This document shows, piece by piece, positions 3,093-41,796 of a DNA stretch of 49,465 nucleotides; positions within the stretch are counted from its first letter, which is position 1, and each line of letters opens with the position of its first letter. The position numbers were made by a program, and so were the translations under genes. The stretch comes from an uncultured bacterium. GTDB taxonomy: Bacteria > Bdellovibrionota_C > UBA2361 > JANWWW01. The notes under the pieces were generated by a model that was given only the letters and a program-made list of their open reading frames with translations, made no database searches and was not told the origin of the DNA. The stretch lies in the NCBI GenBank assembly GCA_938038205.1, contig CALHSA010000032.1:1-49465 (forward strand). Direction: 5' to 3'.

Positions 3093-6000
3093 GTGAATTA
3101 TTTGCAGATAGTAGGGGCCAAAGAGAATAATTTAAAAAATGTAAATCTTACGATACCCCACGATAAAATAGTATTGTTCTGTGGTAGAAGCGGCTCGGGA
3201 AAGACTTCTTTGTTGATTGACATTATACATAATGAGAGTCAGCGAAATTTTTTTCAACTGTACTCTTCGTATTCTCGTCAATTTCTAGAAAAAATTCCAC
3301 CAGCAAAAGTTGATTCTGTAAAAAACCTAAGAGCCTCTGTTGCAGTACTACAGACTCGAACTGTAAGGAATTCGAAATCAACTGTGGGGACATTTTTGAA
3401 TGTAATGGATAATCTGAAAGTATTATTTGTAAATTTTGGGGTATCGGTTTGTCCAAAATGTCAAACTAAATTTGAATCTCAGGAGCCAGAAGTTATTGCT
3501 TCTGAGATATTAACAAAATTTAAATCTGATGAGTTTTTTATTGTCTGTGGTTTGGAGGAAAATTTTGAAAGCTGGGAATTCGTCAAAACAAAAGCTTTAA
3601 ATGCAGGTTTCTCCCGAGTATGGCAAGATAATCAAATAAAATTTGTTGATGAGATCAGAGACATATCCCCACCTGTTTTTTTTGTAATTGAGAGGTTTGT
3701 TGCTCCTAACGTAAATGTTTCTTATGTTAGAGAGGCGATTGAAAATGCATATACTTTTTTTAATAACCGTGTAGCCATAATCCATAAAAACGGTGTTGAT
3801 TTTTACTATAGAAATCAGTTGTGTAAATGTGGCAATTCAAACTCAACACGCTCGCAGCTTGTTTTTGATAATTTTTCCAGTTTTAGTGCCTGTAAAACCT
3901 GTAAGGGCTTTGGATACAGACTATATTATGACCTAGCGAAACTTATTGATCCTGATAAACCTCTTTTACAGGGTGGTTTAAAATTTAGTGCCTTTCCTTT
4001 TTTCTTTGAGTATACTGATAAGCTTTATAATTCCCTAAAAAAACTTGGGATTAATAAAAATCACCGATATTCTGATATTAGTGATGATCAGAGGGATTGG
4101 TTACTCTATGATAAAAAACTAGGCATTTTCAGTTTTTTTAAAAGGTTAGAAAAAAAAAGTTATAAATCCCATATTCGATCAATCATTAGTCGATTTAGAA
4201 GTGAGGAGTGTTGTCCTGATTGTGGTGGATCTGGACTAGGAGAGTTAGCTTCATCATTCACTCTCGATGGATTTACTCTAAAAGAGCTTTTTAATACAGA
4301 GATAGAAGTTCTAAGAAAAGAATTTCTACCAAAATTAAGTAAGTTATCTAAAATATCGCCTGAGGTTGATTTCGTACTTAAAAATCTCTCTGAAAAAATT
4401 AATTTTGTTTCTGACTTGAATCTTGGTTATTTGACTCTTAACAGGAAATTAAAATCGTTATCAAGTGGTGAGCTTAAAAGGTTAAGCATAATATCAAGTT
4501 TAGGGACACCTTTATGTGGTTTACAGATAATTTTAGATGAGCCGAGCACAGGGTTAGGAAAAGAGGATTATGCGTTATTAAGCGAAAGTTTAGTTAGGTT
4601 AAAAGACAGAGGGAATTCAGTATTTTTAATCGAGCACGATTCGAATTTCTTACCCATAGCTGATTACGTTGTTTTTTTAGGTCCAGAGAGAGGACTTGAT
4701 GGAGGTGAGATTGTATTCGCAGGTGAAAAAAAACAGCTCACATTTGATCCATTTTTTGCTGAATTTTCAAGATTACAGTCAGCAAAGATAAATGAATTTA
4801 TTTGTTTGAATGGACTTTCTGGAAATAACATATCTGAGGAAAGTGTAAAAATCCTTATAAATGCGCTAAATGTTATATCTGGTCCCTCAGGTTCAGGTAA
4901 ATCCACCCTCCTAAGGTTAATTTATGAAAAACTTAATCAGCAACAGAAAACAGCTTTTCTTTGTGAGCATAAATTTACACCAAAGAGTTCAAGGTCTACT
5001 GTTGCTTCATATCTAGGTATATGGGACAAGATTCGAGATGAATTTAGCCGTCGAACTGGTCTAGCCAAAAGGTATTTTTCTTTCAACTCTAACAATCAAG
5101 GAAGATGTAAAAAATGTGCTGGATTAGGTTATTTGGTAGAAGATTTGCAATTTCTTCCATCTGTCAAAATAATTTGTCCTGAGTGCGAGGGTAAAAGATT
5201 TAATGATTTTATCTTAAATGCAAAAATTGATGATTTAAATATCATTGACGTATTAAACTTAACGGTAGAGGAGCTAGGGGAATTTTTACCAGAATTAAAA
5301 GATCAAGTTGAGACAGTAAAATTTTTAGGCCTTGGGTATTTGAAACTAGGACAAACATTATCTGAATTATCTGTTGGTGAGGCTCAACGCCTAAGATTGC
5401 TTAGAAGTTTAAACAAGAATAATTCTAAAAGCTTTATTTTATTTGATGAGCCGACGATCGGTTTGCACCCAAAGGATGTTGCCGAGCTACTTAACTTGAT
5501 CTCATTTTTAATTTACAAAGGTCATACAATAGTAATGGTTGAGAATGATGAAAATTTAATTTCGCGAAGTCACCACCTCATTTTAATGGGGCCAGGTGCT
5601 GGTCCAAAAGGTGGAAAAGTTATTTATCAGGGTAAGCCAAAGGAGAGAAAAACCAAAAACCTAAAGGAACCCTCAAAAAGTTTGAAGATTACTAGATCTG
5701 AATTAAGTAAAGATCACTTGCACTTATTTGGCTGCAAAAATAATAATTTGAAAATCGATTACCTTGCTATTCCATATAATAAGTTAGTCTGCTTCACTGG
5801 GGTCTCGGGAGCTGGTAAATCAAGTTTAGTTATAGACACAATTGCTGCTGAGTCGCAAAGACTGTTTCTTAGCAACCTTAGCCCTTATACATTAAGTTTT
5901 CTTGAGTTACTTCCTAAACCGGCCACCGGGAGTTTAGATAATTTAAAACCGGTAATTTTTCTCCCTCAGTATTACGCTGTTAGTTCCAAATATCACTCTG

Positions 6001-8126
6001 TAGGCACTTTGACTGATATATTAAGCTACATCAGGGTGCTTTTAGCTAAAGAGGGGAAATATGTTTGTCCTACCCACAAGGTCCCTCTTGAAGAGGTCGA
6101 TTCTGTTAGGATCAATCAGAGCCTGCAAAAATTCTCTTCGCCTATCTTTTTATTAGGAATTGCAGTTTCAGGAAGAAAAGGGACGCACAAAGAGTTAATT
6201 GAGATGATTTGTCAGTCTGATTTAATCGGGGCATTTGTTGATGGATTATTTTTTCAAAAGGATAAATTACAAGTGTTAAATCTGGATAAAAACCGTCAGC
6301 ACACTATAGAGTTGGTCTCCGCGATTTTTAATTCTAAGAATGTACCTAATGAGCTTATAGAAAATGCAATCCAGTTGTTGAAAAAATTTGGGTGTGAAAC
6401 TATCAAGGTTTTAGATTATCATTCAAAAAAATTTGAAATTTACAGTTTCAAAAAATCTTGTCCAATCTGTGGTTATGGCGCCAGAAAACTGGATCCTGAG
6501 GATCTAAGTTACACATCAAGGAGGGGTAGATGTCAAAAATGTGATGGGATTGGTTTTACAACAGAGGGCGAGTGTTTAGAGTGTAGTGGAAGTGGAGTTT
6601 CTAAAGAGGCATTAAACATTTTATTAGATGGGAAAAACCTTGCTGATATCATGTTAATGTCAATTTATGATTTAAAGGTATTTCTTGAGAATTACTTTGA
6701 GTTAAACAGCAGCTCAAAAATAGTGCAGTCAATACAATATGAGGTAATGCCGAGAGTTGACTCTCTTATCGAGTTAGGCTTGGGGTATCTTAGCTTAAAT
6801 CGAAGGCTATCAACCTTATCAAGTGGTGAACTACAGAGAGCGCGCTTAGCTAGTTTAGTAAATACAACTTTGACTGATATTTTAATCATCTTGGATGAGC
6901 CAACAGCTAGTCTTCATCCATCGGAGGTTGAGTTGGTAATGAGAAAATTAAATGACCAGGTTAAAAAAGGGAATTCAGTTTTTATGATAGAGCATGATCG
7001 TAACGCAATACAGTCAAGTGAGTATGTAATTGAGCTTGGACCTGGTGGAGGAAGAAACGGTGGAAGGGTAGTGTTTAGTGGTAGCTTAGAGAGATACCAA
7101 ATGGTATCTCCAATTTTTTCTCTTGATGAAGAGATAGATCTTCCGAATTACCAACCTGCTATGAGTCATGTAGTTGTCTCTTTCTCAAACGTTAATAATT
7201 TAAAAATCAGAAATCTTAAACTTCCTCTCAATCGATTGGTTGGAATTTGCGGAAAATCGGGTAGTGGTAAAAGCTCGTTGGTTCATGGGACGATATATAA
7301 GGCTTTTGAACAGCCTGTTTGTGACAAATATAGGGTAGAGCTGGGAGATATAAGTGAGGTTGTTTATGTTGATCAGACACTCATCTCGAAAAATTCAAGA
7401 TCTTCTCCAAGCACTTATCTTGATATTTGGCGGCATATTCAATCTTTATTTGCAAGTACCAGGGATGCTAGGTATAGGGGTCTGAAATCAACTGATTTTT
7501 CTTTTAACGCTAGATCGTCAAAATTAATCTGTAAAGAGTGTCTAGGGACAGGTATAAAGAAATTGAAACTGGGTTTCTTGAGAGAGGAGAGGATAAGCTG
7601 CCCTGCGTGTTTTGGTAACCGTTTTAACAGCCAGGCTCTAAATATTAGGTTTAGGGGGCTGAGTATAGTAGATGTTGCTAATTTAACTTTCTCTGAGGCT
7701 TTTGAGGTCTTTAACGATATTAAGGTGGTTTCTAGAGTTTTAGATGAGGTTATAAAAGCTGGATTAGGATATTTAAAACTGGGTCAACCTCTAAGTACTT
7801 TAAGTGGGGGTGAAAATCAGAGACTAAAACTTCTTAAAAATCTTTTAAACAAGTATGTCAGAAAAATTCTTTTTCTGCTTGATGAACCAACACTCGGCTT
7901 ACATGTGTTTGATATGAAAAATTTAATAAAAGTGTTAAGAAGATTAGTTGATAGAGGACATTCTGTTTTTGTTATTGAGCATGAGGAGATAATCCTAAGG
8001 CATTGCGATTACATAATAAATCTAGGCCCTGGCGCTGCAGATGAGGGAGGTAAAGTGTGTTTTGAAGGGCCAAGCTGGGAGTATTTCAATCTTAGAAAAG
8101 CCGCTAAAAGGCAAAAAGCTTCTTAA
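3093..8126 (+). CDS. uvrA: Double-length UvrA-like protein (four ABC ATPase modules, tandem UvrA duplication)
   Basis: UvrA is the damage-recognition ATPase of nucleotide excision repair and loads UvrB on DNA. Usual UvrA has about 940 residues and two ABC modules; this product has 1677 residues and four. Walker A motifs are GRSGSGKT (about 33), GPSGSGKS (597), GVSGAGKS (903) and GKSGSGKS (1387). Signature motifs are LSSGELKR, LSVGEAQR, LSSGELQR and LSGGENQR. Walker B motifs are LDEPSTGL, FDEPTIGL, LDEPTASL and LDEPTLGL. Each half carries Cys-pair zinc modules, including the C-terminal finger pattern CxxCxGxG...CPxCxGxRFN. The second UvrA unit starts near residue 868. Both halves keep an insert where the UvrB-binding domain should be. 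Double-length UvrA is known from chlamydiae. It starts with GTG, followed by QIVGAKENNLKNVNL, the normal UvrA N-terminus. No uvrB or uvrC is nearby. Confidence 0.93.
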   Translation: MNYLQIVGAKENNLKNVNLTIPHDKIVLFCGRSGSGKTSLLIDIIHNESQRNFFQLYSSYSRQFLEKIPPAKVDSVKNLRASVAVLQTRTVRNSKSTVGTFLNVMDNLKVLFVNFGVSVCPKCQTKFESQEPEVIASEILTKFKSDEFFIVCGLEENFESWEFVKTKALNAGFSRVWQDNQIKFVDEIRDISPPVFFVIERFVAPNVNVSYVREAIENAYTFFNNRVAIIHKNGVDFYYRNQLCKCGNSNSTRSQLVFDNFSSFSACKTCKGFGYRLYYDLAKLIDPDKPLLQGGLKFSAFPFFFEYTDKLYNSLKKLGINKNHRYSDISDDQRDWLLYDKKLGIFSFFKRLEKKSYKSHIRSIISRFRSEECCPDCGGSGLGELASSFTLDGFTLKELFNTEIEVLRKEFLPKLSKLSKISPEVDFVLKNLSEKINFVSDLNLGYLTLNRKLKSLSSGELKRLSIISSLGTPLCGLQIILDEPSTGLGKEDYALLSESLVRLKDRGNSVFLIEHDSNFLPIADYVVFLGPERGLDGGEIVFAGEKKQLTFDPFFAEFSRLQSAKINEFICLNGLSGNNISEESVKILINALNVISGPSGSGKSTLLRLIYEKLNQQQKTAFLCEHKFTPKSSRSTVASYLGIWDKIRDEFSRRTGLAKRYFSFNSNNQGRCKKCAGLGYLVEDLQFLPSVKIICPECEGKRFNDFILNAKIDDLNIIDVLNLTVEELGEFLPELKDQVETVKFLGLGYLKLGQTLSELSVGEAQRLRLLRSLNKNNSKSFILFDEPTIGLHPKDVAELLNLISFLIYKGHTIVMVENDENLISRSHHLILMGPGAGPKGGKVIYQGKPKERKTKNLKEPSKSLKITRSELSKDHLHLFGCKNNNLKIDYLAIPYNKLVCFTGVSGAGKSSLVIDTIAAESQRLFLSNLSPYTLSFLELLPKPATGSLDNLKPVIFLPQYYAVSSKYHSVGTLTDILSYIRVLLAKEGKYVCPTHKVPLEEVDSVRINQSLQKFSSPIFLLGIAVSGRKGTHKELIEMICQSDLIGAFVDGLFFQKDKLQVLNLDKNRQHTIELVSAIFNSKNVPNELIENAIQLLKKFGCETIKVLDYHSKKFEIYSFKKSCPICGYGARKLDPEDLSYTSRRGRCQKCDGIGFTTEGECLECSGSGVSKEALNILLDGKNLADIMLMSIYDLKVFLENYFELNSSSKIVQSIQYEVMPRVDSLIELGLGYLSLNRRLSTLSSGELQRARLASLVNTTLTDILIILDEPTASLHPSEVELVMRKLNDQVKKGNSVFMIEHDRNAIQSSEYVIELGPGGGRNGGRVVFSGSLERYQMVSPIFSLDEEIDLPNYQPAMSHVVVSFSNVNNLKIRNLKLPLNRLVGICGKSGSGKSSLVHGTIYKAFEQPVCDKYRVELGDISEVVYVDQTLISKNSRSSPSTYLDIWRHIQSLFASTRDARYRGLKSTDFSFNARSSKLICKECLGTGIKKLKLGFLREERISCPACFGNRFNSQALNIRFRGLSIVDVANLTFSEAFEVFNDIKVVSRVLDEVIKAGLGYLKLGQPLSTLSGGENQRLKLLKNLLNKYVRKILFLLDEPTLGLHVFDMKNLIKVLRRLVDRGHSVFVIEHEEIILRHCDYIINLGPGAADEGGKVCFEGPSWEYFNLRKAAKRQKAS

Positions 8127-34681: not shown

Positions 34682-35671
34682 CTAAATTAAAACACTCTTA
34701 ATGTCTTGTAAGAGTTCTTCTTTGGTTATGTAGCTTGTACCAAACCGTTGAACTACTCGAGCTCCTGCTCTATTAGCAAGAGTTGCTGCAACGTCTACCT
34801 GTTTTAGAACCGTAAAAATAAGGGAGAAAACAACTAGAAAAGTATCCCCAGCTCCTGAAACGTCGCTAATTTCAACTACTTGGGCATCGTAAATTCGTCC
34901 AGAGTTCTCATAGTTTATATAGCACCCACGCTCACCTAAAGTAACAATGACTATTTCGGTGCTCAAGTTTTGCTTTACCATTTCAGCTAACCTATCAAGC
35001 TGAGATCTGCTTTGCACTTCCTCTCCCAATATTGACGACGCATCGACTTGGTTTACTTTAAATGCAGAGCAGCTTTTTATAAATTTAAAATTACCAGATC
35101 TTGTGTCTAGAAATAATGGTCGGCTATTGATGTTTATGTATCCTGATTTTGAAAGCTCATCGAGATAAGAAAAGATTTTAGCTGAAAAAAAAGAAGTTGC
35201 ATGATCAGACGCTAAAATGCAATCTGACCAAAGTATGCCTTCTTTTATTTTTTCTTCAAGTTCAATCTGCTCTTGATTCTGCAGCTTCCACAACTGCTCA
35301 ACATCAACACGAAATACTTGTTGTTTTTTTGATACAAATCTTTCCTTTAAAGTTGTTTTGACCTGCTTTGAACGAAGACATAATGACGTGTCTATACCTT
35401 TCGAGTTCAAAAGGTTGAGAAGTCTGTCTCCACTCTCATCCTCTCCTAAAACTGTCACTATCTTAATGTTATTTGCGAGCTGTTTTGCATTTAAGGCCGT
35501 GTTACAAGCCCCTCCTAACCTCTCTTCATATGTTTGCACTTCAAAAACTGGTATTGGGGCTTCCCTACTAATTCTACTAATAGAGCCAAAAGTATACTTA
35601 TCTAAAATACCATCTCCTAAAACTAAAACTTTTAAAGAATCAAGCTGTTCAAGGATTTCATGGGGATTCAC
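34682..35671 (-). CDS. rfaE1: D-beta-D-heptose 7-phosphate kinase (RfaE N-terminal domain type)
   Basis: A PfkB-family kinase that makes heptose-1,7-bisphosphate for ADP-heptose in LPS inner-core synthesis. Segments: KVLVLGDGILDKYTFGSISR, SREAPIPVFEV (RISPEAPVPV), RLGGACNTALNAKQL (GGAxNVA), FKVNQVDAS and the C-terminal DVSGAGDTFLVVFSL (anion hole and catalytic Asp). Only the kinase domain is present; the nucleotidyltransferase half of HldE is missing and must be separate. I prefer GTG at 35671, because AAGGA lies 6-7 bases before it; a TTG at 35695 would add eight residues. Divergent from the HU-like gene. Confidence 0.9.
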   Translation of the reverse strand: MNPHEILEQLDSLKVLVLGDGILDKYTFGSISRISREAPIPVFEVQTYEERLGGACNTALNAKQLANNIKIVTVLGEDESGDRLLNLLNSKGIDTSLCLRSKQVKTTLKERFVSKKQQVFRVDVEQLWKLQNQEQIELEEKIKEGILWSDCILASDHATSFFSAKIFSYLDELSKSGYININSRPLFLDTRSGNFKFIKSCSAFKVNQVDASSILGEEVQSRSQLDRLAEMVKQNLSTEIVIVTLGERGCYINYENSGRIYDAQVVEISDVSGAGDTFLVVFSLIFTVLKQVDVAATLANRAGARVVQRFGTSYITKEELLQDIKSVLI

Positions 35672-35703
35672 TCTCAATCCTTCTTGTAGGTTCAACTTTA
35701 TGC

Positions 35704-35709
35704 TAAAAT
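35704..35709 (+). promoter_or_regulatory. Predicted -10 box of the HU/IHF-like gene
   Basis: TAAAAT ends 8 bases before the ATG at 35718. With a 17-base spacer the -35 position reads TTCTTG (35681-35686). The placement supports the shorter start of the HU-like protein and a leaderless mRNA. Confidence 0.4.
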
Positions 35710-35717
35710 GGCCGAAA

Positions 35718-36017
35718 ATGTCAAGGAATGTTGGCAGAGCTCAGATAGCTCAAAAAATAGCTGATGAATTAGGTCTTCGTAGATCGCAAACCCCTTATAA
35801 GCTTGTTATGCTATTAATCCAACACCTTAAAGATTGTATTTTTAATGCTGGAGAGTTATCGATTCATAGATTTGGTGTTTTTTATTTACTAAAAAGAAAA
35901 TCTCGTATTGGCCGTAATCCCCAAACTGGGGAGAAAATAATACTTCCCGAGCGTATCGTAATCAAATTCAAAGCCTCGCCTCTACTCAAGGATTTTTTCA
36001 CGTGTGAGAATTCTTAA
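35718..36017 (+). CDS. HU/IHF-family DNA-bending protein
   Basis: 99 residues. The start is set at ATG 35718, giving MSRNVGRAQIAQKIADELGL, the normal helix 1 of HU/IHF proteins. An ATG six codons upstream is possible, but it lies inside the predicted promoter. Key segments are LSIHRFGVFYLLKRKSRIGR (family GFGTFxxxxRxxRxGR) and NPQTGEKIILPERIVIKFKA (family RNPxTGExIxIPxxxVxxFK), which form the DNA-binding arm with its intercalating Pro. The body between these is IHF-like in length. It overlaps the next gene by 14 bases, so this nucleoid protein heads the TamB-TamA transcript. Confidence 0.93.
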   Translation: MSRNVGRAQIAQKIADELGLRRSQTPYKLVMLLIQHLKDCIFNAGELSIHRFGVFYLLKRKSRIGRNPQTGEKIILPERIVIKFKASPLLKDFFTCENS

Positions 36018-39000
36018 ATTCACTGAGAGAATTGTACTCACACTTATTTTAGCTCTTTTAGTCCTGCTTAAAGCAGGAGAGATTTTTCTCGAGTTTTATC
36101 TATTTGATTTGCTTGCTAAGGAAGTAAATGTTCCTACAGGTTGTAAATTAGAGGCAGATGTTTGGGATCTAAGTATTTTTAGGCTCTCTGGAATTGGGGA
36201 AAAGGTAAATATTGTTTGTGAGAAAGATAAGGTTGTTACGGTTGAAAAAATTCAAGCTGAATTCTCTCTTAGGGAAATTTTCAAAAAAAAAGTTAATCTT
36301 AATTTAATTCTTTTTGATGCTTACTCGGATGGTTTTTGGGAGGATACAGTCTTATATAAGTTTATTGATTACCTTGCTTTAGAGCCTGAGAGAGAACCAT
36401 TTATTCGGCTAACCCTAAAAAAAATGAGTATCTTTGGAATCAAGTCAGAGGGAGACTTTGAGGGTTTTAAAGTTAAAGCATACGGGAATCTTGAGTACAA
36501 TCGCACCTGGGATGATACGATTGGCCTAATCGTAGATATCAAAGACGCAGTGATTAACAAGTTTAGAACAAGTAACCTGAATCTTAGATTTAGTATCTCT
36601 GATATAGTTCAATTAAAGGAAATCTTAGGAAGTATTGAATCATTTTTGATCTCTGGTAGTGGTTTTTTTAACTCAACCAAATCTTTAAATTTAGCTATGG
36701 TAAATGAATTAAATAATCTCTTGATCACTTGGGAAAAAGATGAGAAGAGTCGTTTAAGAATCAGTGCTGAAGGTGAGGAATTTGAATTAAGTGGAATTCA
36801 AATTAAAGACTACAGCTCGAAGGTGGCTCTTCAAGATCTATCGCTTTTTGATGGCGAACTTGATGATTTAGAGAGTGGAGTACCTTTTTTTTACAATTTG
36901 ATGTTAAGCTCAGATATAGATTTTTACGCTAAGGAAATTAAATTTTTAGATATTTCTTTCTACGACTTAAAATTTGAGCTTCATGAAAAAAAAGCTTTTT
37001 TTGAAGCTAATAACATTGATTTTTCTGGCTACAATATTGGCTGTGTTAGATTTGAGGTGGAGCAAGATAAAAACGTACTGGTTTTTTCTGTGTTCGAGCC
37101 TTTTGAGGCTGTAATTCGATTGTTTGTTCCTGATAGGAGCTTTTTTATCGAAAAGATTCGTTATGATTTCTTTGAAGCATATGAAACATCAGGAAAAATT
37201 AAAGTTAACTCAATTTTAGGTAAAACTCGTTTCTTTAACAGCGTTTACGAATTTAGCATATCCAAGCCTTTATTTTACTTAAAAGAGCTTCAAGGGAAAG
37301 TTTTAGTTGAATATAACAATGCACTTAATATTAGTTTGAAAGATTACGAGTTTGATATAAATTGCGCAAGGTTGAGTGTTCATGCCTCATTAAAAAGTGG
37401 TTTTCTTGATATACAAAATTTAAAAGTACAAACCAACTGCTATGGATTTTCGGGCTGGTTTTTATTAGAGGGGATAAAGACTTCGGCTAACCGCATTAAT
37501 GTAAACTCTAATATAAAGTCCTCTATGGGGGATATAAGCTTGCTTGTTCATGGAAATTTTGAAAATTTAAGTTTTAAACTATTTGGCGATATTAATTTTA
37601 CTCCGGTTAATTTTACTGATTTTCATTATTCCGCTCCATCAAAATTAGAATTGAGCGGTAGTTTAAATAGATTCAAACTTAGGAAACTTGATGGAAGAAT
37701 TGATATCACAGACGGAACAATAATACATACCTCAAACCTTATAAGTGTAAAGAGAATTAACGCAGAGGCGGACTTCGATTCTCAGGGTTTTTATTTAAGA
37801 AAATTCACTGGGCAAGTTAATGACGGAGAATTTAGCTTACATGGAATGTTTAGATCTTCTAATGACAAGTTTTTAAAAGGGGAATTCAAGGATGTAAAAC
37901 TTCGATACCTGGATAACTTAGACGCGTTATTTAGTGGAGATTTTGATTATAAAGATACTCTTAAGGTCAATTTATTGGCTACAAAACTCGATTTAAAAGT
38001 GCCTGAAACCTCACTAATTTTTTCTCTGTTTGAGAGAACGAAATCTCAGCGTTTTGATGATTTCCTCCAAATTTTAAAAACCATAGATGTTGATCTTGGA
38101 TTTCAATCTATAGGTGGTGTCAATCTTGAAATACCGGGGTTATCTACACGACTATTAGGTTTCATACGGTTAAAAAATACTAACGGTCAAATTAGCAGCG
38201 AAGGAAGCTTAAGCCTTGTAGGAGGATTCATTAGTATATCTGCAAATCTATTTGAAATCAGGCGTGGGCGAGTGTACTTTAACTCCTCATTAATTCCTCA
38301 GGTAGATATAACAGCATCACGGATTTTCTATTATTCTAGACTGTTTCCTGTAGAAATATTCATTAATTTAAAAGGAGATGCTTTTGAACCAAGAGCAAAT
38401 CTTTTTTCCTCATCTGAGCTTACTCAGGATGAAATTCAAAAAATTATTTTTACACGTGATCCTGCTTTTTATAACTTCTCCCCAAAAGGAGTAACACTTC
38501 TACAAGAATCGGATATACCTCTCAAGGTTTTACCTGATTTTTTAGTTAAGAATTTTCTTCCCGGCACAATATCTTTAGATTTTATACCTCAAGAGGGAGA
38601 TCAAACCGTTTATAGCTTACAGTTCGGTAAACAGATGACAGAGAGAATAAAACTTCTGGCTGAGACAACTTTTTATGAGAATTACTCAACGAATAAAATT
38701 CGCTTAAAATTCTCACCACTTGAGAGATTTACTTTATTAGGGGAGGTCTCTAATAACCCACTTCTTGCTCAAACTGGATTTAGTGGGGATGTGTTGTACT
38801 CAGCTATTGATTCAAGTTTAGATTCAATTTTTAGCTTTAAAGGGAATAAACATTTTAGTGCTTCAGCTCTAAGAGCTTACATTCCTAAAGTTTCTATTTT
38901 AAACATCTCCCTTCTTTCAACGCTAACTAAGATGCTTGAGTTTTATTATAAAAACTCTGGATTCCTACATGCTCGGGTTGAGGCGTTATGTTTAAAGAAA

Positions 39001-40989
39001 ATAGATGATTTTTGTATGAAGGTGCAGTTTCAAATATTTGAGGGTCCCAGGTATGTATTAAGAAGAGTCTATTCAAATATTGAAGGGCCTAAGTTTGAGT
39101 CTTTGCCTGCAACGGATGAGAACATAGGCTCCATTCTATCTAAGCTAAAAAGAAGTCAGATTAGGGAAGGATTCTTTATAGGAGATTTGAGTGTGAGAAA
39201 AAATTGCCACGATATCAATTCCACTCTGGTTGAATGTGACTTAATCATCCATGTTGGAGTGAGAAGAAATATAAAAATAGTTAGCAAAAATTCTAGTGAT
39301 ATAGAGTTCTTTATCTCTTTATTTGAGAATATAGATGATCCTTTAAATCTAAGTGAGAGTTTTTATCTGAATTTCTCAAGAAATATTAGTTTAAAAACTG
39401 GCCGTCTCATTAAGGTTAGAATTGTAGATCAAGGGTCAATAACTTTTTTTGAAATACAAAGCTCTCCGTTACAAATTGATGTGGATGTTGATGGTGTTGT
39501 GAGAGAATCTTTTCAATCAAAAGCTTTGTCAGAGGTTTTATCAAGTCTTACTGAAATCTTGAGGGATAAGAATTTAGTTTTACAAAAGTACCAAATAAAT
39601 TGGAGTGAATCGGGAGAGGTAAAACTAATAGCTAGCGCGTCGAGTTTAAATCAGAGTGTTGAAGCAGATTCAAATTCTTTATCTGGAAGTGATACTGTGG
39701 TTGCTAATCAAGATTTAAGGGATACCAAATTCGAAAAAGAGTATGAGGTAGATTTAGATAAAAATTTTGAAGTAAACTTAAATTCCGATAAAAATCAGCC
39801 CAAAATTTTTGGCCGTAGTAAGCAGATATCTGATATTACAATATTTAATTTTGATGGCAAGGTGCCAAGGTACATCCGAAAATTAGCTAGAAGTTTTATT
39901 GGCAAAACTGCTGATGATCAAACTATATCAGAGTTAATAAACAGTATTGAAAAACTTAAGGTTTTTAAAATTGTTGATTATTCCTTAGATAAGGAGGAGG
40001 GAAGTCTAAAATTGTATTTAAGGAGAATGCCTTATCGAAGTTTAAATTTAGGAGGTGGTTATCATTCAGAGCTTGGTTGGCATTTATTTGCAATAGGATC
40101 AGATCAATCCCTTTTTGTATCAGGTCAACAACTTTATGGAAAGATGGATATTTATCTAAAAGAAGATTTCTCGGAATTGAACCTTGGGGCTGTTAGCATA
40201 TCTTACCGTGATCCTTTAATAAATTTTGAGAGGTATACATTTGAGTCAGATCTGGGTTTTCAAAGAACTAAACAGTCTGAATTACCGTTCAGCCTGGAAA
40301 GATCGAAGATGAGTCTAAACCTTAACTGGCTTGGTCCTGTTTACTTAAAATCAAAGTTTGGCGTAGTCTCTGACTCTGTTTTTGATGTCAAGCCTGATAT
40401 AACCAGTGGGACTAATGATGTAAGTTTAGTATTTTTGGGACTCGAGGGAAGAATTACAGAGTTAGACAATTTTGTATTACCAAGGAGTGGCTATAATTTA
40501 TTCGGGGAGATAAAGTTTGGATTTCTTGATTTTAATCATTTTGAGTTTAAGCTTGGCAACTCATACCATTTTAGTTTTCTAGATGATTTTTCAATATATT
40601 TAAGTGGTAAGTTAAGTCAAATAGTAAGTGATGAGGTTGTGCCGATCTCTTACAGATATTTTTCTGGGGGTAGAGATACTATCAGAGGTTATAAGCTCTT
40701 TAAACTTGGCAAAAAGGGCGCGGAGGGGAATCCTGTGGGTGGAAAACGATTAGTTCTGACAAGATCTGAGTTAAGCTTGACAAAATTTGAGCCTATTATT
40801 GGTAGCTTATTTCTTGACGCAGGATTTCTCGATAATAAAACTAGGGAATCGACTGGGGTCGGCATTGGTTTTGGTTTAAGGTATGCGACCCCTGTTGGGC
40901 CTGTTGGAGTGGAGTTTGCTCGAGGAATTTATGATAATTCTGCTTCTCGAGATTTTGCTTTTTACCTGTCTGTTGGAGTGAATTTTTAG
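36004..40989 (+). CDS. TamB-TamA fusion: TamB-like translocation protein joined to an Omp85/TamA barrel in one chain
   Basis: 1661 residues in one frame. The N-terminus is GTG then MRILKFTERIVLTLILALLV, an inner-membrane anchor. Residues about 30-640 are long repeated beta strands, as in AsmA/TamB proteins. Residues about 690-930 match the TamB C-terminal domain (DUF490): LVGGFISISANLFEIRRGRV, YFNSSLIPQVDITAS, then LFSSSELTQDEIQKII. Near residue 940 POTRA-type repeats begin (FSFKGNKHFSASALRAYIPK), with later ones near 1010-1130 and 1325-1385. A Ser/Asp/Lys-rich linker lies about 1220-1310. A 16-strand Omp85-type barrel follows, with the lid-lock motif DTIRGYKLFKLG near 1558 and the terminal strand ending SVGVNF. 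TamA and TamB are normally separate proteins. It sits between the HU-like gene (14-base overlap) and the CorC-like gene (zero gap). Confidence 0.9.
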   Translation: MRILKFTERIVLTLILALLVLLKAGEIFLEFYLFDLLAKEVNVPTGCKLEADVWDLSIFRLSGIGEKVNIVCEKDKVVTVEKIQAEFSLREIFKKKVNLNLILFDAYSDGFWEDTVLYKFIDYLALEPEREPFIRLTLKKMSIFGIKSEGDFEGFKVKAYGNLEYNRTWDDTIGLIVDIKDAVINKFRTSNLNLRFSISDIVQLKEILGSIESFLISGSGFFNSTKSLNLAMVNELNNLLITWEKDEKSRLRISAEGEEFELSGIQIKDYSSKVALQDLSLFDGELDDLESGVPFFYNLMLSSDIDFYAKEIKFLDISFYDLKFELHEKKAFFEANNIDFSGYNIGCVRFEVEQDKNVLVFSVFEPFEAVIRLFVPDRSFFIEKIRYDFFEAYETSGKIKVNSILGKTRFFNSVYEFSISKPLFYLKELQGKVLVEYNNALNISLKDYEFDINCARLSVHASLKSGFLDIQNLKVQTNCYGFSGWFLLEGIKTSANRINVNSNIKSSMGDISLLVHGNFENLSFKLFGDINFTPVNFTDFHYSAPSKLELSGSLNRFKLRKLDGRIDITDGTIIHTSNLISVKRINAEADFDSQGFYLRKFTGQVNDGEFSLHGMFRSSNDKFLKGEFKDVKLRYLDNLDALFSGDFDYKDTLKVNLLATKLDLKVPETSLIFSLFERTKSQRFDDFLQILKTIDVDLGFQSIGGVNLEIPGLSTRLLGFIRLKNTNGQISSEGSLSLVGGFISISANLFEIRRGRVYFNSSLIPQVDITASRIFYYSRLFPVEIFINLKGDAFEPRANLFSSSELTQDEIQKIIFTRDPAFYNFSPKGVTLLQESDIPLKVLPDFLVKNFLPGTISLDFIPQEGDQTVYSLQFGKQMTERIKLLAETTFYENYSTNKIRLKFSPLERFTLLGEVSNNPLLAQTGFSGDVLYSAIDSSLDSIFSFKGNKHFSASALRAYIPKVSILNISLLSTLTKMLEFYYKNSGFLHARVEALCLKKIDDFCMKVQFQIFEGPRYVLRRVYSNIEGPKFESLPATDENIGSILSKLKRSQIREGFFIGDLSVRKNCHDINSTLVECDLIIHVGVRRNIKIVSKNSSDIEFFISLFENIDDPLNLSESFYLNFSRNISLKTGRLIKVRIVDQGSITFFEIQSSPLQIDVDVDGVVRESFQSKALSEVLSSLTEILRDKNLVLQKYQINWSESGEVKLIASASSLNQSVEADSNSLSGSDTVVANQDLRDTKFEKEYEVDLDKNFEVNLNSDKNQPKIFGRSKQISDITIFNFDGKVPRYIRKLARSFIGKTADDQTISELINSIEKLKVFKIVDYSLDKEEGSLKLYLRRMPYRSLNLGGGYHSELGWHLFAIGSDQSLFVSGQQLYGKMDIYLKEDFSELNLGAVSISYRDPLINFERYTFESDLGFQRTKQSELPFSLERSKMSLNLNWLGPVYLKSKFGVVSDSVFDVKPDITSGTNDVSLVFLGLEGRITELDNFVLPRSGYNLFGEIKFGFLDFNHFEFKLGNSYHFSFLDDFSIYLSGKLSQIVSDEVVPISYRYFSGGRDTIRGYKLFKLGKKGAEGNPVGGKRLVLTRSELSLTKFEPIIGSLFLDAGFLDNKTRESTGVGIGFGLRYATPVGPVGVEFARGIYDNSASRDFAFYLSVGVNF

Positions 40990-41796
40990 ATGTTGTACTT
41001 TGGTATTTTAGTTCTAGCACTGTTTATTTTTTTTGTTTGGTATTTTTATTTAAAGCCAAACGAATTAAAACCGCAACAGAACTTTGAGCAAGAGATAATA
41101 AAAAACCAAGAAGTATTTAAGGATTTAAAGGTGCGGCATGTATTTACCCATATTTCAAAGGTTGAGTATGTAGATTTGAATTGGGAGTTTGAAAGAATTT
41201 TAAAAGTTGTTTTAGAGAGCAAATATAGTCGTTTCCCTGTTATTTCTGAATCAATAGATAGTCCTGAAGGTACTTTACTTGCTAAAGATTTTTTAAAAGC
41301 GGTTATTCAGGGTCAAGAGTTCTCTATAAAAGATCTTTGCATCCGCCCTGTTTTTATTCATCTGGATCAAACTCTTTCGAAAGCTTTAAAGAAAATGCTT
41401 AGAACACGAACACACCTTTTTTTTGTTATAGATGATTACGGGTGTGTTGATGGAATAATTACTTTAGAAGATGTTTTGGAGAAGCTTGTTGGAGAGATTT
41501 ACGATGAATCAGACAAGCAGGAGATAAGCATAGTTGAAACACCTGCAGGAGAGATTGTTCTACCGGTGGATACCCCTGTAGGTGATGTTTTTGTTAAGTT
41601 GGATTTAGATGTTGGAGAGGACATTGAGCCAGTAACGATTCTAGGTTGGGTTAAAGAGAGGCTTGGTCGCGATTTAAAACCAGGGGAGGCTGTTGAAATT
41701 CAGTTAGGTGATGGTGATATTCCTTTTGTGAATCCGCTAAGGTTAAGTATAACTTTATCTGAAAGGCAGGATACGCTTGTCATAAAGAAGGTATAG
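40990..41796 (+). CDS. CorC/HlyC-type CBS-domain protein with one N-terminal membrane helix
   Basis: 268 residues. A single TM helix at about 3-20, then a CBS pair (about 50-170; VRHVFTHISKVEYVDLN, SKYSRFPVISE, DYGCVDGIITLEDVLEKLVG) and a C-terminal CorC/HlyC transporter-associated domain (EIVLPVDTPVGDVFVKLDLD ... TILGWVKERLGR). The order matches CorC, which is linked to Mg/Co efflux; the four-helix CNNM/DUF21 domain of larger relatives is absent. The ATG follows the fusion gene's stop with no gap. Its last 42 bases overlap the convergent DUF2878 gene. Confidence 0.85.
   Translation: MLYFGILVLALFIFFVWYFYLKPNELKPQQNFEQEIIKNQEVFKDLKVRHVFTHISKVEYVDLNWEFERILKVVLESKYSRFPVISESIDSPEGTLLAKDFLKAVIQGQEFSIKDLCIRPVFIHLDQTLSKALKKMLRTRTHLFFVIDDYGCVDGIITLEDVLEKLVGEIYDESDKQEISIVETPAGEIVLPVDTPVGDVFVKLDLDVGEDIEPVTILGWVKERLGRDLKPGEAVEIQLGDGDIPFVNPLRLSITLSERQDTLVIKKV

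Follow-up and report, generated by a model that had tools for sequence, protein, structure and literature searches.

In Escherichia coli, TAM is formed by two proteins, TamB and the Omp85 protein TamA. TamB binds phospholipid and contacts the POTRA domains of TamA, and deletion of TamA POTRA1 impairs growth (PMC12800296). The six-strand C-terminal domain of E. coli TamB pairs through its last strand with strand 1 of TamA and sits partly inside the barrel (PMC12800296). Operons of TamB with a BamA-type Omp85 have also been described; in the published view, tamB initially had BamA as its partner, and TamA arose from duplicated BamAs, of which some have seven POTRAs (PMC4494059). In the BAM-TAM of Borrelia, TamB works with a BamA-type Omp85, and a hybrid barrel has been predicted (PMC13382580, PMC11361582). 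Outside Proteobacteria, the TamB-Omp85 pairing has hitherto been deduced chiefly from gene neighbourhood and from models. Ten Omp85 architectures have been catalogued, and none of them was found to contain TamB when the text of that paper was searched for TamB, DUF490, and fusion (PMC4104836).

We analyzed one stretch of DNA (the window, 49,465 nucleotides in full) and found that TamB and an Omp85 protein are encoded there by a single gene. An earlier note on this DNA had described one uninterrupted frame, and this was borne out, as no stop codon interrupts it. The features of the gene and its neighbours are listed below by position and strand.

35358..36017, + strand: upstream ORF, its C-terminal part HU/IHF-like as judged by eye
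36004..40989, + strand: fused tamB-omp85 gene, an uninterrupted frame of 1661 aa with a GTG start
36031..36093, + strand: N-terminal signal-anchor helix for the inner membrane, residues 10-30, from hydropathy
36121..38565, + strand: TamB body forming the beta-groove, residues ~40-854, the N-terminal part assigned by homology and the rest modelled from residue 575
38071..38757, + strand: TamB/DUF490 match (PF04357), residues 690-918, 31.7 bits against a cut-off of 22.4
38566..38808, + strand: six-strand TamB C-terminal sheet, residues 855-935, from the AF2 strands (281-361 of the model) and alignment
38809..38829, + strand: fusion junction, residues ~936-942, from the junction alignment
38830..40026, + strand: POTRA region, residues 943-1341, predicted by AF2
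40036..40986, + strand: 16-stranded Omp85 barrel, residues 1345-1661, from PF01103, AF2, and VIA-align
40681..40692, + strand: IRGY motif of Omp85 loop 6, residues 1560-1563, from the translation
40990..41796, + strand: downstream CBS-domain CorC/HlyC-like protein, beginning immediately past the fusion stop codon

The upstream ORF and the start of the fusion share 14 bp, a possible case of translational coupling. Elsewhere in the window (3093-8126, + strand), we observed an ORF of 1677 aa containing five stretches of ABC_tran and two of the UvrA-interaction domain, which looks like a tandem double-length UvrA.

The domain order given in the earlier note, an anchor followed by TamB/DUF490, POTRAs, and an Omp85 barrel, was recovered by Pfam, hydropathy, and AF2, with a POTRA profile match at residues 944-992 that was weak (17.5 bits, below the cut-off of 21.3). 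The sole strong hydrophobic segment of the chain was found at residues 10-28 (peak 2.44); this anchor call comes from a hydropathy scale and not from a trained predictor. A signal peptide inside the chain was considered and rejected, as hydropathy revealed none. The Omp85 match (PF01103) at residues 1409-1661 scored 75.6 bits against a cut-off of 24. The IRGY motif was confirmed, with its RG columns conserved in alignments of homologues, and the last residue is a Phe, as previously noted. All the hallmarks of the Omp85 superfamily were found in the fusion: PF01103, a 16-strand barrel, an RGF/RGY motif, and at least one POTRA. The AF2 models of window residues 575-1661 (pLDDT 77.6, pTM 0.69) and of a homologue from genome G007 (pLDDT 86.1, pTM 0.79) both contain TamB strands, two or three helices, a six-strand sheet, POTRAs, and a 16-strand barrel, and VIA-align matched the barrel to Sam50, BamA, and TamA with Z of 22-25. 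The C-terminal helices and six-strand sheet described for TamB (PMC12800296) are kept in both models, consistent with TamB membership.

The host genome of the window is a fragmented draft (1.22 Mb, 81% complete), and a long open frame in such a genome might be an assembly join or frameshift near 38821, the junction position given in the earlier note, which agrees with our alignment. We give this explanation virtually no credence, as it is refuted by independent relatives: genome G001 and more than 20 other independent assemblies encode proteins homologous from end to end, and they have one junction in common. The artefact is further opposed by selection across the junction, with omega below 0.2 (dN/dS 0.155-0.183 in family f5, similar to the rest of the gene), and by the GC content of the TamB and Omp85 halves (0.333 and 0.346), which shows no composition break. 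The junction evolves under purifying selection.

The single-frame architecture was found in ~31 of the 45 genomes of the class. Both halves lie in one frame in 28 of the 45, a few of them cut by a contig end; the ~31 also include G012, G039, and G043, whose broken or partial loci are compatible with the fusion. The two-ORF state was observed in 13 genomes, and a TamB match was missing in G011. Of the 24 families, 15 were fused, 8 were split, and 1 was without TamB. The earlier note had placed the fusion in this organism, and it is indeed present in the window, but it spans 15 families, and the assemblies that contain it stem from many independent projects. No fusion was found at 54 loci of other phyla, which typically had two adjacent genes, tamB then omp85, or, by TamB frame length, in 115 genomes of two other phyla, where the longest frame was 1405 aa; the absence outside the class applies to these 54 loci and 115 genomes. 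A scan of genome contigs with the single fusion protein as query returned no match. The fusion is an old, conserved natural trait of a little-known uncultured class. The earlier proposal that TamB and an Omp85 form one covalent chain, with a membrane segment at either end, is supported.

To see what was lost and what was kept, the junction was aligned across fused and split loci. At this position, TamB ends with a stop codon in the split relatives and Omp85 starts anew, with a signal peptide and, in most cases, an extra POTRA of ~80-100 residues. In every member of the main fused clade, this signal peptide and this extra POTRA are missing, and the last TamB strand, with the consensus (G)ADLxYT, passes straight into the next POTRA. 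In the window, strand 6 of the TamB sheet is TGFSGDVLYSAID (residues 923-935), and a POTRA follows within ~7 residues. The terminal beta-signal Phe is absent from this strand (...GDVLYSAID, compared with ...LDLLYQFEF in E. coli TamB), and the fusion has no TamB beta-signal with a terminal Phe/Tyr at a protein end.

One alternative is periplasmic cleavage of the fused precursor close to the junction, in which case the machine would still be a two-protein TAM and the fusion would only equalise amounts. This would resemble the split relatives, which are two proteins, and a 1:1 complex would benefit from equal production (PMC12800296). However, across 19 fused proteins, hydropathy showed a single anchor each and, at the junction, no second hydrophobic or signal-peptidase-like segment, there is almost no linker between the last TamB strand and the first POTRA in the main clade, and the junction is conserved like the domains. 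We consider such cleavage distinctly unlikely.

In most of the diderm relatives sampled from other phyla, including Nitrospirota, Desulfobacterota, Acidobacteriota, and Fibrobacterota, tamB is followed by omp85 in adjacent or overlapping ORFs. Within the class, fused and split loci have a pdhC-lipA/lipB-tamB neighbourhood in common (pdhC and lipA/lipB were named by eye from the sequence). This common synteny suggests that the fusion most likely arose in place from adjacent tamB and omp85 genes. In this process the stop codon would have disappeared, together with the signal peptide and first POTRA of the Omp85, and the two frames would have been joined. In two split members of the class, G004 and G017, the ORFs overlap by 4 bp and the Omp85 is already without its first POTRA. 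By comparison of these loci, the split state of this type (L046, L053) appears intermediate-like and shows that little remained for fusion.

In trees, 19 fused proteins formed a single clade (SH-aLRT 99), and the fused protein of G015 (L052:7226-12853) grouped with the split clade (support 99). G015 differed from all other fusions in its junction, ahead of which it retained a longer TamB tail, as in the split group. Its placement and distinct junction make two fusions plausible, and there may have been two fusion events in the class; a single origin was not rejected on the tree (AU p=0.11).

The barrel half had been called TamA in the earlier note. Its assignment to the Omp85 family holds, but it is not a strict TamA: the fusion scored 69 bits against the NCBIfam TamA equivalog NF047950 (cut-off 625) and 60 bits against canonical BamA, TIGR03303 (cut-off 297), failing both. 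In profile alignments, the barrel half matched E. coli BamA over 642 columns (score 267), better than TamA (485 columns, score 178), and in a tree it grouped with Omp85 proteins of tamB operons, apart from the BamA of the class (support 98). The window model has three confident POTRAs and a low-confidence stretch of about two, and the G007 model has six, suggesting that the barrel half probably has five or six POTRAs and not the three of TamA. It is a BamA-like, many-POTRA Omp85 of tamB operons, which fits the published view of TamA originating from BamA (PMC4494059).

Another protein of the window genome passes TIGR03303 at ~463 bits; the genome has a separate canonical BamA on contig C9. A third, small Omp85-like protein with a single POTRA was found on contig C27 (L055:2996-4630), where its divergence keeps it below the Pfam Omp85 cut-off. 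Omp85/BamA-profile matches additional to the fusion were present in all 42 class genomes searched. Most class genomes have a third Omp85-like protein, in frames of ~600 aa, besides canonical BamA and the TamB-linked Omp85.

The window and G001 (L035) make up family f1, which has a small low-GC genome, a rearranged tamB neighbourhood, and a very long branch (~2.9 substitutions per site). The window fusion is 33-34% identical to its nearest relative. This high divergence and the poorly predicted POTRA stretch suggest that the function of the window copy may have drifted. A further possibility is that the fusion no longer has TAM function and has become a diverged surface or structural protein of a reduced-genome lineage, as the long branch and the low-confidence POTRA middle of the AF2 model might indicate. 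We regard this as very unlikely, since the anchor, the DUF490 sheet, and the barrel are all kept, and since a whole-genome profile search found the fusion as the single TamB match and an AsmA (PF05170) search of the same genome found no match. The fusion is thus the only candidate of its kind found in the window genome.

The architecture, conservation, selection, synteny, and predicted fold point instead to an inherited fusion of TamB with its neighbouring Omp85 that works as a one-piece TAM, a reading we hold to be very probable and from which we infer its cellular topology, lipid transport, and uncleaved state. By analogy with E. coli, the best reading of the chain is a covalent TAM-type trans-envelope bridge for lipid or OMP assembly. 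It would enter the inner membrane through its N-terminal anchor, its hydrophobic TamB groove would span the periplasm, and its C-terminal barrel would insert in the outer membrane, probably aided by the separate BamA. With its ends inseparable, it would serve as a lipid path and/or OMP-assembly bridge, a role carried over from E. coli. The covalent link would take over the holding of TamB to Omp85 that a distal POTRA performs in E. coli.

The earlier note had also argued that the TamB C-terminus could no longer insert into the barrel seam. The free end and the terminal Phe are indeed lost, but the six-strand domain is kept in both AF2 models, and from its position directly ahead of the first POTRA it may still form a pair with strand 1 of the barrel. 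VIA-align rows frequently start in TamB strands (at model residues 198-200 and 283) that are placed at the start of barrel strand 1, and TamB residues 210-213 and 304-305 of the second model are likewise set there. This hints that the TamB sheet lies near the seam in both models, but these are ranges only and might result from a few stray aligned residues, so the hint carries no weight in our reading. In outer-membrane protein topology, the substrate-like last strand of a hybrid barrel ends at the periplasmic side. With the end of strand 6 facing the periplasm in a hybrid barrel, the POTRA that follows is not forbidden. That the covalent machine arose twice in the class (in the main clade and in G015), with the sheet forming a permanent cis hybrid barrel and a lipid conduit between the membranes, seems rather unlikely.

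A literature search covering part of the literature found no published TamB-Omp85 fusion, in line with the earlier note, whose author knew of no covalent TamB-TamA. The fusion appears to be undescribed: its parts are known, and what is new is their covalent and conserved fusion, which may have happened more than once. By 'Rosetta stone' logic, a natural fusion that has been conserved argues strongly that TamB and the BamA-type Omp85 of its operon work together directly. As a single chain of 185-210 kDa anchored in both membranes, it would be a simple object for cryo-EM. It allows one to ask whether the TamB C-terminus is required as a free end, whether the first POTRA serves for docking alone, and whether the subunits of TAM must come apart during their cycle, and it provides a direct test of how the TamB/Omp85 bridge between inner and outer membrane works.

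Several known systems resemble the fusion in part. TamL-TamB of Bacteroidota likewise combines TamB with an Omp85 partner, TamL being a separate lipoprotein (PMC12045153). The Borrelia BAM-TAM consists of two proteins and uses the only BamA of the organism, whereas the genome with the fusion has a separate BamA. The E. coli TAM has the same inner-membrane anchor, TamB beta-groove with DUF490, helices followed by a six-strand TamB C-terminal sheet, POTRAs, and 16-strand Omp85 barrel. The fixed 1:1 ratio that the earlier note attributed to the covalent link holds, but it is no change, as TamA and TamB of E. coli are already 1:1 (PMC12800296). The fusion differs from the E. coli TAM in being one chain and not two, in the order B-A and not A-B, in having probably five or six POTRAs and not three, and in its strand 6, which is internal and without the final Phe. 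The nearest relatives of both halves outside the class are the tamB-omp85 gene pairs of Nitrospirota, Desulfobacterota, Acidobacteriota, and their relatives. These pairs encode both proteins, in an identical order, in adjacent ORFs; unlike in the fusion, the ORFs are separate, and the Omp85 carries a signal peptide of its own and has one POTRA more.
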